64,000 nt of DNA from Methanoculleus sp. MH98A. Lineage in GTDB: Archaea; Halobacteriota; Methanomicrobia; Methanomicrobiales; Methanoculleaceae. Numbering within the stretch: the stretch's first letter is position 1; the number at the start of each line of letters is the position of its first letter. A program made the translations under genes and the position numbers. The DNA is taken from the NCBI RefSeq assembly GCF_000691865.1, contig NZ_JMIO01000006.1, positions 62,001 to 126,000 on the forward strand, read 5' to 3'. Positions 14,181 through 58,761 of this stretch are shown piece after piece. The notes beneath the pieces were generated by a model. That model was not told where the DNA came from. It searched no databases and saw nothing but the letters and a program-made list of their open reading frames with translations.

Positions 14181-14242
14181 GGGGGAGCGGGAACGTGCCG
14201 CACGAAGACGATTACCAGTGGAGCGCGACGCGTTAACGAGTA

Positions 14243-14286
14243 GCGCACCTGACGGTGCTCGAGCTCCGTTTCTGCCGAAACGTCGC
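14243..14286 (-). repeat. Two-hairpin composite repeat
   Basis: Reading the minus strand: GCGAC, hairpin 1 GTTTC-GGCA-GAAAC, linker GGAGCTCGAG, hairpin 2 CACC-GTCA-GGTG, GCGC. Both stems are perfectly paired although their bases differ from other copies. It ends about 30 bases from the cobN remnant. Confidence 0.7.
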
Positions 14287-23901: not shown

Positions 23902-25738
23902 ATGCGACTTCTTCTAATCCACTCTGATCACATCGAATACGAGGCCCGGAAGAAGACGAAGGTCGCCGAAGAGGACGCCGTCCCAAAGGACGCCCTCGAC
24001 GAGGCGCTTGCCGTCTTCTGCGCGGTTGAGTCTGTCGACGAAGAGAACATTGAGGACGCCGTCAGGCAGGCGGCGGACGAGATCGTCGCCACCGCCCGGC
24101 AGCTCGGCACCACCAATATCATGATCTACCCCTATGCCCACCTCTCCTCCGACCTTGCATCGCCGGGGGCGGCGGTGAGTGTTCTTAAGGGCATCGAGGG
24201 GGCCCTCGTCGGTACGGACGGCTTCGTCGTGAAACGCGCGCCGTTCGGCTGGTACAAGGCATTCTCGCTCTCCTGCAAGGGCCATCCGCTCTCCGAGCTC
24301 TCGCGGACGATCGTCCCGGGCGAAGGGGCTGCCGCGCCCAAGAAGGAGATCGAGCACGAGTTCTTCGTCATCACCCCCGAGGGGGACCGCAAAGACGCGG
24401 CCGATTACGCGAAGGAGGAAACGCCCTTCGCCGCCCTGATCCGGAAGGAACTCGGGTATCCGGGGCCGGAAGGGGCCGAGCCGGTGCACGTCGACCTGAT
24501 GCGTGCGAAGGAACTCGTGGAGTACGAACCACGTGCGGATGTTGGAAACCACCGCTGGATGCCCCGGGGCAAGCTGATCCGGGACCTTCTCTCCGATTAC
24601 GTCCTTACACAGGTGCTTGACTACGGCGGGATGCCGGTCGAGACCCCGGTGATGTACGACCTCGGTGATGCGGCGATCGCGGAGCACGCGGCCAAGTTCG
24701 GGGAGCGGCAGTACCGGTTCAAGAGCGGCAACCGCGACATGATGCTCCGGTTCGCGGCGTGTTTCGGGATGTTCTCGATCATGCACGACATGCACATCTC
24801 CCCGAACACCCTCCCGATGAAACTCTACGAGCTCTCGACCTACTCGTTCCGCCACGAGCAGAAGGGCGAGGTGATCGGGCTGAAGCGTCTGCGCGCCTTC
24901 ACGATGCCCGATATGCACACCCTCTGCCGGGACATGGACGGCGCGCTCACGGCGTTCGAGGAGCAGCTCGCGATAGGCTGGAAGACCGGCGAGGATCTCG
25001 AGACCCCGCTTGTCGGGGTCTTCCGGTGCACCCGCGACTTCTTCGAGCAGTACGAACTCTGGGTGAAGGGGATCGTCGCGAAGTCGGGCGTCCCGATGCT
25101 GATCGAGGTCCTCTCGGAGCGGACCCACTACTGGATCGCTAAAGTCGATCTTGCGGCGATCGATGCACAGGGGAGGCCCATCGAGAACCCGACCGTCCAG
25201 ATCGACGTGGAGAGCGCCGACCGGTTCGATATCAAGTACTACGCCCCGGACGGGACGGGAGGTCCACCCCCCGATCCTCCACTGTTCGCCGACGGGCTCG
25301 ATCGAGCGGGTGATCTGCGCGATGCTCGAGGGCACCGCGGCACAGGAGGTCCCCTCGTTCCCGACCTGGCTCGCCCCGACCCAGGTCAGGCTGGTGCCGG
25401 TGGCGGAGCGGCACGTCTGTTTCGCGGAAGAGATCGGCACCCGGCTGAACGCGGCCGGCATCAGAGCGGACGTCGACGACCGGGACGAGAGCGTGAACAA
25501 GAAAGTCCGCGAGGCCGGGATGGACTGGGTGCCCTACGTCGCGGTGATCGGCGACCAGGAGGCCGAGACCGGCCGGCTCATGGTCACCATCCGGAAGCTC
25601 TCGGAGAAGAAGAAGCCTTTCAAGGAGTCGATGACCGAGAACGAACTCGTCCAGGCGGTGAAGTTGGAGACCGCCGGAAAGCCCTTCCGGCCGCTCTACA
25701 CGCCGAAGCTTCTCTCGCGGAAGCCCCGGTTTATTTAA
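23902..25738 (+). CDS. thrS: Threonyl-tRNA synthetase (archaeal type), frameshifted by a one-base insertion
   Basis: A class II synthetase of 611 residues after repair. The N-terminus ([20 protein letters not shown]) is the archaeal D-Thr-tRNA editing domain. Motif 2 ([22 protein letters not shown]) and motif 1 precede the break. Near 25257-25259 an extra G (ACG-GGA-GGT instead of ACG-GAG-GTC) shifts the frame. Removing it restores [19 protein letters not shown] (motif 3) and the anticodon-binding domain to the TAA at 25736-25738. Everything else is normal, so a sequence error is the likely cause. Confidence 0.92.
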
Positions 25739-25744
25739 TCACTC

Positions 25745-25752
25745 TTTTTTTT
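25745..25752 (+). terminator. T-run terminator after thrS
   Basis: Eight consecutive Ts start six bases after the thrS stop codon. Archaeal RNA polymerase terminates at such runs without a hairpin. Confidence 0.55.
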
Positions 25753-25818
25753 GTGCGAATTTTCGGGGCGCGACGACCCGATGGGTGCGATGGTCCGAAG
25801 CGCGACCGGCCGAAGGGT

Positions 25819-25859
25819 GCGATGTTCCGTAGGAACGGAGCAGGAGCACCGAAGGTGCG
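25819..25859 (+). repeat. Two-hairpin composite repeat
   Basis: GCGAT, hairpin 1 GTTCC-GTA-GGAAC (25824-25836), linker GGAGCAGGA, hairpin 2 GCACC-GAA-GGTGC (25846-25858), G. Both stems are perfect, with loops of the G-N-A type. Confidence 0.8.
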
Positions 25860-25871
25860 GGGCGGGAGCGT

Positions 25872-25923
25872 GAGCACCGGAGGTGTGAAGGACCGGAGCT
25901 TGAGAAAACGCGAAGCGTTTTCG
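25872..25923 (+). repeat. Composite repeat, variant copies
   Basis: Hairpin GCACC-GGA-GGTGT is followed by GACCGGAGCTTGAG and a longer hairpin AAAACGC-GAA-GCGTTTT (25905-25921). The linker CGGAGCTTGAG is the same as in other copies while the stem is different and longer. The core GCGAAGC is a sequence known for forming an unusually stable DNA mini-hairpin. Confidence 0.75.
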
Positions 25924-25935
25924 GGGTCGGAGTGG

Positions 25936-25997
25936 GAGCACCGCAGGTGCGACTTGTGATGGTTCGTAGGAACCGGAGCGCGAGCACCGCAGGTGTG
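25936..25997 (+). repeat. Two-hairpin composite repeat with an extra half copy
   Basis: A lone hairpin 2 (GCACC-GCA-GGTGC) is followed from 25956 by a full module: GTGATG, hairpin 1 GGTTC-GTAG-GAACC, linker GGAGCGCGA, hairpin 2 GCACC-GCA-GGTGT. Confidence 0.75.
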
Positions 25998-26187
25998 ACT
26001 TGCGATGGATGTGCCCGCCATCGCGTCCTTCGGACAGCCACGCGGAAGTGGCAGCAGACGAAGCGGTCGAACGACACCTAGCACGGATTTCATGAGGATA
26101 TCGCCCCTGGGGGTGGGGCTGACGGGGAGGGGGGAGCATCCCCCCTCCCCTGTCTCCACATACGAGGGAATTCCTGTAACCCCCACT

Positions 26188-26232
26188 CGAAGACCTTCGG
26201 TCTTCTCAAGCTCCGGACGTCCCGTCCGTCGC
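26188..26232 (-). repeat. Two-hairpin composite repeat, inverted orientation
   Basis: Read on the minus strand: GCGAC, hairpin 1 GGACG-GGA-CGTCC, linker GGAGCTTGA, hairpin 2 GAAGACC-GAA-GGTCTTC (forward 26189-26205). Hairpin 1 equals that of the copy at 38861, but hairpin 2 differs in all but its loop. Confidence 0.8.
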
Positions 26233-26260
26233 ACCCCGCCCGGTCTCCGGCCTCCTCCTC

Positions 26261-26301
26261 CGCACCTGCGGTGCTCATGCTCCGGCCCCATGGCCCGTCG
26301 C
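26261..26301 (-). repeat. Two-hairpin composite repeat, inverted orientation
   Basis: Minus strand: GCGACG, hairpin 1 GGCC-ATGG-GGCC, linker GGAGCATGA, hairpin 2 GCACC-GCA-GGTGC. Confidence 0.75.
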
Positions 26302-26339
26302 ACCCCGCCCCAGGGGGCGGGGGCAGTCCATGGCGATAG

Positions 26340-26380
26340 GCGATGGTTCGGAGAACCGGAGCTAGAGCACCGAAGGTGCG
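26340..26380 (+). repeat. Two-hairpin composite repeat
   Basis: GCGAT, hairpin 1 GGTTC-GGA-GAACC, linker GGAGCTAGA, hairpin 2 GCACC-GAA-GGTGC, GAAG. Confidence 0.8.
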
Positions 26381-26550
26381 AAGCCGGTGGAAAGCCGTGT
26401 ACGGTTTGTGACGCTTCTGACAACAGTAGGACGGGAACCCAATGTTTGACATCGTCAGTTTGGCCACTCATCCTCCCATCCCCAAACCACCCCCCCGCCA
26501 CACCACAGACATGCCTGCCAACACCCTACCAAACCCCGCCCCTGACAAGG

Positions 26551-37466: not shown

Positions 37467-38837
37467 ATGCGAAATGGAAAACAGATGTTTGGAACGAACG
37501 GCGTGCGGGGTGTGATCGGAGAGACGATGTCGCCGGCCCTCGTCCTCAAGATCGGCGCAGCGCTCGGATCGATGAGGAGAGGCACCATCGCAGTCGGCAG
37601 AGACACGCGAACATCCGGCGAAGCCCTGACCCATGCCCTCAAGGCCGGACTCCTGATGACGGGGTGCGACGTGGTGGACATGGGCGTCCTCCCCACCCCG
37701 GCCCTGCAGTACATCATCAAGACCAACCGGTTTGGCGGCGGCGCGATGATCACCGCATCCCACAACCCGCCCGAGTATAACGGCGTGAAGATCGTCGAGG
37801 CCGACGGTACCGAGATGTCCGATGAGGAGATCATCCGGCTCGAAGGCCGGTTCTTTGCAGAGGAGTTCGATGTGGTCGAGTGGGACGGTGTCGGCAAGGA
37901 GAGCGCCGCACCCGTCCGGCTGGAGGAGTACATCGAGGCCGTCGTGAACCACTTCCCGGAAGGCATCGGCAAGGGCATGACCGTCGTCGTCGACCCCGGC
38001 TCCGGGCCCGCAGCGCTCACGACCCCGATCATCCTCTCGAGGATGGGGTGCCGGGTCCATACCATCAACGGCAGGCTCGACGGCACCTTCCCGGGCCGGA
38101 TGCCCGAACCGACCCCCGAAGGATTGCAGCCCCTCTCGGAGATGGTACTCGCTACGGGCGCCGACTTCGGGGTGGCGCACGACGGCGACGCAGACCGGGC
38201 GGTCTTCGTCGATACCAAAGGACGCTATATAGAAGAGAACTACGAGTTCGGTCTGGTCGAGGACTATGTCTGCGGTAGAAACGGCGGCGGACTCGTCGTC
38301 ACCCCGGTCGCCACCTCCCGGCTGATCCGGGATATCGCGGAGAAACACAACTGCACCGTCGACTACACACCCGTCGGGAGCATCTACGTCGCGAGGAGGA
38401 TGATCGAGCTGATCGGCGAGGGCAGGAAAGTCTCGTTCGGGGGCGAAGGAAACGGCGGGCTGATATACCCCGACCACCAGTTCTGCCGGGACGGGGGCAT
38501 GACCGCCGCCATGATGGTGGCGGTGCTCGCGAGCCATCAGGACAGGAAACTCTCGGATATCGTCGACGAACTCCCGGCGTATCACCTGGTCAAGGAGAAA
38601 TACCATACCGCCGACCCGGCGGCGCTGGTCCGCACCGTCGAAGAGGCATTCACGGGAGAGACCGTCGAGAAGATCGACGGCATCAAGATCATCAGGGACA
38701 ACGTCTGGGCGCTGGTGCGGGCATCGGGCACGGAACCGATGATCAGGATCATGATCGAGGCAAAGGACCCGGCCGTCGCGGACGCCATGTACCGGGAGAT
38801 AATGATGGCCGCGACGGGCCGAAGGGCCAGAGCGTGA
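37467..38837 (+). CDS. glmM: Phosphoglucosamine mutase / phosphohexomutase
   Basis: A 456-residue alpha-D-phosphohexomutase. The phosphoserine loop is MITASHNPPEYNG (Ser about 98), the metal loop DGDADRAVF, the sugar-binding GEGNGGLIYPD, and the phosphate-binding loop VRASGTEPMIRI. Archaeal members interconvert glucosamine-6-P and -1-P (and other hexoses) for UDP-GlcNAc. The last residues (ATGRRARA) are encoded by a copy of the two-hairpin repeat, so the native C-terminus may have been altered slightly. The start is ATG 37467, with ATG 37485 (MFGTNGVRG) an alternative. Confidence 0.9.
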   Translation: MRNGKQMFGTNGVRGVIGETMSPALVLKIGAALGSMRRGTIAVGRDTRTSGEALTHALKAGLLMTGCDVVDMGVLPTPALQYIIKTNRFGGGAMITASHNPPEYNGVKIVEADGTEMSDEEIIRLEGRFFAEEFDVVEWDGVGKESAAPVRLEEYIEAVVNHFPEGIGKGMTVVVDPGSGPAALTTPIILSRMGCRVHTINGRLDGTFPGRMPEPTPEGLQPLSEMVLATGADFGVAHDGDADRAVFVDTKGRYIEENYEFGLVEDYVCGRNGGGLVVTPVATSRLIRDIAEKHNCTVDYTPVGSIYVARRMIELIGEGRKVSFGGEGNGGLIYPDHQFCRDGGMTAAMMVAVLASHQDRKLSDIVDELPAYHLVKEKYHTADPAALVRTVEEAFTGETVEKIDGIKIIRDNVWALVRASGTEPMIRIMIEAKDPAVADAMYREIMMAATGRRARA

Positions 38838-38858
38838 GAAAACCCGAAGGGTTTCGAA
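38811..38858 (+). repeat. Two-hairpin composite repeat overlapping the glmM 3' end
   Basis: GCGACG, hairpin 1 GGCC-GAAG-GGCC, linker AGAGCGTGAG, hairpin 2 AAACCC-GAA-GGGTTT, CGAAG. The TGA within the linker is the stop codon of glmM. Confidence 0.75.
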
Positions 38859-38860
38859 GC

Positions 38861-38912
38861 GCGACGGACGGGACGTCCGGAGCATGAGAAAACGCGAAGC
38901 GTTTTCGAAGCG
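38861..38912 (+). repeat. Two-hairpin composite repeat
   Basis: GCGAC, hairpin 1 GGACG-GGA-CGTCC, linker GGAGCATGAG, hairpin 2 AAAACGC-GAA-GCGTTTT, CGAAGCG. It follows the previous copy by two bases, and hairpin 2 is identical to that at 25905. Confidence 0.8.
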
Positions 38913-38950
38913 CGACGGGTCGCAGAGCCAGAGCGCGAGCACCAGGTGCA
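38912..38950 (+). repeat. Two-hairpin composite repeat, degenerate
   Basis: GCGACGGGTCGCAGAGCC, linker AGAGCGCGAG, then CACC-A-GGTG. Order and linker are kept, but the stems are shortened. It is the third copy in a tandem row. Confidence 0.55.
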
Positions 38951-39128
38951 CGCAGTCTGTCTGGCACGATCGCCTCACCGCGCCGACCCCTCACCCGCGG
39001 GATCGGGAGCCCCATGAATCAGTTCCGCCCGGGGTGCCCGGGATGACTGCTATACTCCACCTTATCCCTGATATTTTTGAGGAACTCTCCGAATCCATTG
39101 AAAAACATTCTTGTGAGAGGGGGGCAAT

Positions 39129-51599: not shown

Positions 51600-52200
51600 G
51601 AGGGGAGTAGAGACACCGGTTCATATTCACTCCATGCCCTGCCGTCACCCTCCATGCACCGGAGCACTGTAGCGAAGGTGAGGGCCGGGGAGGCGAGTAC
51701 GGAGACAGTGGAGTCGTGACAACTAGCAACTTCAACCAAAGAAGAATTCGATACAGTGGACTATGGGAGCATCGCCACGCACTGCCCGCCCCCCTGCGGG
51801 GGGGCGGGAGGAGCGCGAAGCGCGGGTGGTGGGGGGTTGATGAGAAATTTGCGGGCGCCCACATAGGGGGAGCGCTCCTATCATGAAAGGGCCGACGGAT
51901 AGTGTTCGAGGCTTGAGATGGCCGAAGATCTTCGAAGCACGTATTTGAACACTGTCTGATGCGAAGAGACAGGGGAGGGGGGCGTGCCCCCCTCCCCACC
52001 TGACGGTGGTCGAGCTCCGGGCGTTCCGCCCATCGCACTCCCCGTCAGCCCCTCCCCAAAGGGCGATACCCACCGAAAAGCCGTGCAAGAGTTGTGCGAT
52101 CACAAGTGGTAGGAATAGAGTGTCGCAGGCGCGAGTAGCAGCAAACTGAATGTTCAGAGTCCAAACATCCTGTCCAACTAACCGCTCTCAGAGCAAAACC
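51600..52200. other. Intergenic region with repeats, no gene
   Basis: No frame has gene-like codon use. It holds a long GC hairpin, CCCGCCCCCC-TGCG-GGGGGGCGGG (51785-51808), followed by a mini-hairpin GCGC-GAA-GCGC (51813-51823), a palindrome GGAGCGCTCC (51870-51879), GAAGATCTTC (51924-51933) and an inverted copy of the two-hairpin repeat at 51996-52036. A direct relation with the nest at 25.8 kb is clear. Confidence 0.65.
51996..52036 (-). repeat. Two-hairpin composite repeat, inverted orientation
   Basis: Minus strand: GCGAT, hairpin 1 GGGCG-GAA-CGCCC, linker GGAGCTCGA, hairpin 2 CCACC-GTCA-GGTGG. Both stems are perfect and differ from those of every other copy. Confidence 0.75.
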
Positions 52201-58438: not shown

Positions 58439-58563
58439 TATGTACAGGGTAGGCGCCGCGGGATAGAAGAGGTTGCGGTCAGCGGCCCGGCCCGTGCCCT
58501 TTGATCGCTCGAACACCAGAGGCCCCTTGCACAAGCGTGATCTCATGGCAATGTCATACGAGT

Positions 58564-58626
58564 TCACGCGAAACCGCGAAGTCAGAGCATTGATAGGCTC
58601 TTCGCGTTCTTCGCGGCTTCGCGTGA
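58564..58626. repeat. Imperfect inverted repeat with GCGAA units
   Basis: TCACGCGAAACCGCGAAG (58564-58581) pairs with CTTCGCGGCTTCGCGTGA (58609-58626) with one mismatch in 18, around a 27-base spacer. It could form a long hairpin between the divergent cobT and cobZ-cobS genes. GCGAA echoes the loop sequence of the composite repeats, but the layout differs. Confidence 0.5.
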
Positions 58627-58761
58627 GACTGAGCCCCCCTCTCTCACTGTGCCTCGCGCCGAATCAGACTCAAGCTCCACTCGAAACTCTTCGGGGTTCT
58701 CGAACACCGGCAGTCGTTAAATCCAAACGCCGAAATACCTCAGGGCTCCAATACCTGAACA

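Follow-up and report, generated by a model that had tools for sequence, protein, structure and literature searches.

Methanoculleus genomes harbor a short dispersed unit of ~46 bases (about 44-47 nt) that folds into two hairpins. Its copies have repeatedly been inserted into the loops of other copies, and the unit therefore behaves like a tiny mobile DNA element. From sequence comparison among relatives, we consider it probable that this double-hairpin unit is a non-autonomous mobile DNA repeat which operates as a strand-specific DNA hairpin. Mobility is proposed because a single spacer, located behind thrS, occurs with one, two and four nest levels and because units are present or absent among relatives. 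The window analyzed is the whole stretch of 64,000 nucleotides (G000:C6:62001-126000) from a source assembly of 2.54 Mb in 306 contigs. An earlier sequence-only reading had recognized the two-hairpin layout and its structural selection, but neither the nesting in hairpin loops nor the mobility, and it had not separated the unit from the rPQS repeat described below.

The layout itself is real, the constant-letter pattern GCGAYGN{7,20}GGAGCNNGA having 132 matches in the window's own genome versus 14 for a reversed-pattern control. Among 169 distinct copies picked by constant letters alone, pairing being no criterion, hairpin-1 stems are Watson-Crick paired at 87% of positions, compared with 58% (maximum 60%) when the 3' halves are shuffled among copies, and 15 different fully paired stems occur. 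Similarly, hairpin 2 has a perfect stem of at least 5 bp in 112 of 152 copies, versus 0.35 in shuffled sequence. The GCGAY...RGAGC segments, initially described as constant linkers, do carry constant letters but are mostly base-paired, forming a covarying basal helix of hairpin 1 with tandem G·A pairs. In 318 of 340 distinct units, the base preceding CGA can pair with the one following GAG, as G-C or A-T (211 expected by shuffling), and the next pair outward is complementary in 222 of the 340 (119 expected); a partly overlapping count of basal-pair complementarity gives 220 of 256 versus 129. Between these basal pairs, the constant CGA and GAG form a C-G pair and the tandem G·A. Hairpin 1 is thus built of basal N-G/A-C pairs, the tandem G·A, a Y-R pair, a free stem usually of 5 bp and a GNA or GNNA loop, while hairpin 2, preceded by a short linker, consists of GA, a free stem of 5-8 bp, a GNA or GNNA loop closed by C-G, and GA.

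Covariation over the full structure was assessed on 47 non-redundant units, with shuffles and slid alignments as controls. In this set, 95.4% of cells are paired, both sides change in 8 of the 9 pairs of helix 1, and the covariation score reaches 0.404, versus 0.146 for shuffled and at most 0.078 for slid alignments. The near invariance of hairpin 2 here reflects an alignment restricted to its commonest type; variation in this hairpin is visible instead in the 152-copy constant-letter test. Paired stem changes are also present in the wider genome. Collectively, these data support selection for structure and not for stem sequence, as the retained pairing of variable stems had suggested. Some hairpin-1 stems (GGGCC/GGGCC, TGGCC/GGGCA, CGGCC/GGGCG) retain a G·G mismatch at their center, around which the outer pair covaries. 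Among the mismatches of hairpin-1 stems in general, 84 are purine-purine versus 5 pyrimidine ones.

Within the window, the covariance model recovers ten of the twelve copies listed by the sequence-only reading, namely 25819, 25956, 26187(-), 26258(-), 26340, 38811, 38861, 38912, 51992(-) and 14241(-), as well as a half-unit at 25910 (Table 1). The remaining two are not independent copies: 25872 is the 3' half of a unit interrupted by one nested within it, and 12338 is only a degenerate second-hairpin remnant which the model does not recover. The cluster was also delimited differently. Instead of starting at 25819, the nest begins further left, at 25770, and the interval 25819-26380 does not hold a single family, since about 26097-26338 belongs to a different, larger repeat that carries double-hairpin units as inserts.

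Table 1. Double-hairpin units and associated elements in the window.
Feature	Position	Strand	Basis or remark
Nest level 0 (outermost), 5' half GCGAC GACCC GAT	25770..25782	+	Gap-free parse; un-nested ortholog L254 (G010)
Nest level 1, 5' half, stem GGTCC, loop GAA	25786..25799	+	Parse
Nest level 2, 5' half, stem CGGCC, loop GAA	25800..25814	+	Parse
Nest level 3, innermost complete unit	25818..25859	+	Covariance model and parse
Nest level 2, 3' half GGGCG GGAGC GT GA and hairpin 2 (the earlier 25872 copy)	25860..25889	+	Parse
Nest level 1, 3' half GGACC GGAGC TT GA and hairpin 2 GAAAACGC-GAA-GCGTTTTC	25890..25923	+	Parse
Nest level 0, 3' half GGGTC GGAGT GG GA and hairpin 2 GCACC-GCA-GGTGC	25924..25953	+	Parse
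Single unit, degenerate 5' anchor GTGAT	25956..26000	+	Covariance model
Host element: G-rich hairpin A and C-rich arm B, flanked by terminal arms GATATCGCC/GGCGATA	26097..26338	+	
Hairpin A of host element, the published rPQS core	26119-26156		PMC8044849
Unit GGACG/CGTCC and GAAGACC/GGTCTTC, within arm B of larger element	26187..26232	-	Covariance model
Unit, GGGCC-type and GCACC/GGTGC	26258..26301	-	Covariance model
Unit GGTTC/GAACC and GCACC/GGTGC, 3' end of larger element	26340..26383	+	Covariance model
Unit overlapping 3' end of 456-aa ORF ending 38837	38811..38859	+	Covariance model
Second unit of tandem	38861..38907	+	Covariance model
Third unit of tandem, degenerate	38912..38953	+	Covariance model
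Unit inserted into hairpin A of second copy of larger element	51992..52036	-	Covariance model
Unit in 47-nt insertion without counterpart at G019 and G005 orthologous sites	14241..14286	-	Covariance model and comparison

The segment 25770-25953 parses without gaps into four units, each located at the 3' edge of the preceding unit's hairpin-1 loop, and insertion into these loops leaves the outer pairing intact. In the orthologous spacer behind thrS, only the outermost unit is found in G010 and the outer two in G005, where the level 1 ortholog is un-nested (L244, GGTCC-AAA-GGACC), while all four levels are present in M. sediminis (L207); G019 has no recognizable copy of the nest. The order of insertion can be read from the layers of such nests. 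At about 25,000-25,300 of the window, the ThrS reading frame is itself split between two ORFs, 23902..25959 for the 5' part and 25151..25738 for the C-terminal part, which is probably an assembly frameshift.

Nesting is not limited to this spacer. In all the DNA compared, 69 outer hairpins enclose a unit, versus 1-10 with permuted stems; these nestings involve 12 outer stem types, and one G019 locus provides many of the overlapping counts. Levels 2 and 3 recur together as a block at other loci, and the two-level nest CGGCC[GTTCC] was seen as a block at several unrelated places (L006/L048 near 8564, L204, L216). At one G019 locus, a unit is nested in itself about sixfold, its 5' half occurring eight times and its 3' half six times; this fits repeated self-insertion followed by slippage, the halves being not perfectly balanced. 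A search for nesting in hairpin-2 loops found none.

Comparison of orthologous sites, which for G019 covered about half of its length, further showed that whole units are present or absent between relatives. G019 lacks a 37-nt short-form unit found in L058 and a 42-nt piece found in L051, but it alone has a tandem array of 21 units. At the 38811 site, the window's own genome and G019 are identical, and the corresponding place in G005 is occupied by three tandem units whose stems differ. The unit at 38811 supplies the stop of the ORF ending there, T as second base turning NNGA into TGA. Another inverted repeat family, CACGCGAAGCCGCGAAG...CTTCGCG.CTTCGCGTG, is found at about 58480-58640 of the window and near 222.4 kb in G019, and one of its G019 copies is the target of the 21-unit array. 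The direction of change, gain or loss, is firm only where two relatives are without the unit.

Junctions carry repeats of 2-3 nt (GGG, GAA, GAG, GCG), for which target duplication and microhomology cannot be told apart by sequence. With regard to MITEs, no terminal inverted repeat is recognizable in the unit ends (YGCGAY ... GCGA), and no autonomous partner was encountered in the course of the comparisons. These short identities, together with the tandem arrays, the exchange of hairpin blocks between otherwise similar units and the lack of a candidate enzyme among the families tested, are what one would expect from passive spread, in which replication or repair copies short palindromes through microhomology-mediated template switching, without dedicated machinery, slippage yielding the tandems and nests. 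Such a process is a serious, though less probable, alternative, as it accounts poorly for defined unit ends recurring at many sites, for the preference for hairpin-1 loops across 12 outer stems, and for strong structural selection genus-wide.

According to the covariance model, many Methanoculleus species have more than 100 units, as a lower bound given that scoring covered about 104 candidates in each genome, while other species have 0-14; one genome of a second genus of the same family has 78, and essentially none were found elsewhere in the order. Draft assemblies probably undercount units, since contigs often end in unit arrays (G000 C1, C7, C40 and C57; G005 C9). Outside the order, pattern matches in Rhodobacterales and Fimbriimonadaceae look like chance, and one in Lokiarchaeota, in GC-rich sequence at the end of a contig of 43% GC, is probably foreign or chimeric. 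In viral sequences, the exact pattern had no match and a looser pattern a single one, which lies in repetitive GC-rich sequence, has no proper hairpin 1 and also looks like chance.

Genomic context was counted with a simple gene caller on about 1.3 Mb of G019. Only 14 of 160 units lie inside called coding sequences though 80% of this DNA is coding. Of 45 unit clusters, 20 are located between convergent genes and 6 (13%) between divergent ones; among the 421 spacers longer than 150 bp, these arrangements account for 98 and 120 (28%), respectively. Relative to the gene whose 3' end precedes, 105 units have the same orientation and 85 the opposite one. Units are thus intergenic, shun divergent promoters and have no clear orientation preference. 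Because of this rarity in coding sequences and between divergent genes, and of the 105:85 orientation, their persistence is probably selfish. The number of intergenic copies, up to more than 100 per genome, could also suggest a host-kept site for chromosome architecture or for a DNA-binding protein, but this is very improbable, as some species of the genus have almost none and unit positions turn over between species.

Whether these hairpins act as DNA or as RNA had been left undecided by the sequence-only reading, and the DNA idea fits better. This interpretation is favored by the GNA and GNNA loops, by tetraloops that are mostly not GNRA (87 of 108 GNNA loops) and by the C-G closing pair of hairpin 2 (338 of 340 distinct units); GNA/GNNA loops belong to a class of extraordinarily stable DNA mini-hairpins (PMC4686876). 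Minimum-energy folding of the 26340 copy gives exactly the double-hairpin structure with both DNA and RNA parameters, and the predicted fold is more stable with RNA than with DNA energy parameters. Wobble asymmetry between strands was rejected as proof of either RNA or single-stranded DNA, since it is too weak once the Y-R pair is set aside (G·T 53 versus A·C 35). The covarying helices, the tandem G·A pairs, the RNA folds and the excess of units in convergent spacers would all agree with a structured RNA that, once transcribed, affects stability, processing or termination from within 3' untranslated regions, its spread being secondary. Such a role is nevertheless unlikely, given the near-even orientation toward genes, mixed within clusters, the presence/absence turnover between close relatives and the prevalence of non-GNRA tetraloops. 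A search of Rfam at the gathering score returned only a tRNA in the window and no match to the unit.

As for a mobile DNA repeat, the unit would act in single-stranded form, for instance on the lagging strand, with its stable hairpins serving as a signal for recognition or protection. Its copying to short targets (GNA, GAG, GCG, GGG), presumably often exposed in existing hairpin loops, would be due to a trans-acting host factor or to template switching driven by structure. In the sequences compared, whole units are seen at new sites, in tandem arrays and at the 3' edge of other units' hairpin-1 loops. It is conceivable, though doubtful, that the unit represents a new minimal class of mobile DNA, a strand-specific, single-stranded DNA double hairpin recognized by shape, preferring hairpin loops including those of its own copies, and moved by a yet-to-be-known enzyme.

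Among known systems, REP, BIME and REPIN sequences, mobilized by RAYT enzymes, are similarly short extragenic palindromes, clustered and biased toward convergent spacers. A REP/BIME-like element moved by a RAYT or IS200/IS605 (Y1) transposase would account for short intergenic hairpins in clusters of both orientations and for the GGAG adjoining hairpin 2. In the double-hairpin unit, however, this GGAG sits in the paired basal helix and is not the GTAG/GGAG foot of a sequence-conserved palindrome, the stems vary freely, and there are two hairpins with tandem G·A and GNA loops. The Y1_Tnp family (PF01797; RAYT/IS200-type) is moreover absent from the window's own genome and from nearly all high-copy genomes, being present mostly in low-copy ones. 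This origin is therefore contradicted for Pfam Y1_Tnp and scarcely credible overall, although a highly diverged Y1 enzyme could revive it. Reverse transcriptase (PF00078) is absent from the own genome and from most relatives searched, and none of Y1/RAYT, reverse transcriptase, TnpB and IS110 tracks unit copy number across genomes, in line with the earlier proposal of a new structure-selected element.

The rPQS [CTGAC] repeat core, published for Methanomicrobiaceae, shares with the unit its genus, an intergenic tail-to-tail bias and a common element in the window, but corresponds to the G-rich hairpin A of the separate, larger element (PMC8044849). The double-hairpin unit lacks the four-G-run core GGGG-N-GGGG-CTGAC-GGGG-A-GGGG and occurs without it elsewhere. 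Copy numbers of units and rPQS cores dissociate both ways (at least 113 versus 1 in G012, 78 versus 0 in G035, 11 versus 42 in G023), so that the unit is independent of the rPQS-bearing element and the 25.8-26.4 kb cluster cannot be a single element. This sets the unit apart from the G-quadruplex repeat already published. A survey of satellites in prokaryotes includes 45-nt and 51-nt families in M. marisnigri, whose period matches that of the unit's tandem arrays; the part of the survey considered here lists them as tandem repeats only, without describing hairpins, dispersal or nesting (PMC6749651). Judging from period and species, these satellites are probably tandem unit arrays. A literature search found neither the double hairpin nor its covariation or nesting described.

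A close likeness, compared by description, is to the double-hairpin or repetitive hairpin-forming elements of fungal, algal and sponge mitochondria, which are short, GC-rich hairpin pairs, dispersed, mainly intergenic and mobile-looking, with no known enzyme. The Methanoculleus unit shares their defining feature, two adjacent hairpins in a short dispersed repeat. These elements have been described mainly in mitochondria, and the sponge ones have conserved stems and varying loops (PMC2800124), the reverse of the Methanoculleus unit; recursive loop nesting likewise does not figure in the portions of these accounts considered. With its genus-wide copies and its filled, part-filled and empty orthologous sites, the unit offers a prokaryotic counterpart to mitochondrial double-hairpin elements. 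It explains part of both the fine structure of Methanoculleus intergenic regions and their assembly breaks. It also opens to test whether the shape of single-stranded DNA can by itself be what selection acts on in a mobile element, and whether insertion in vivo targets hairpin loops.
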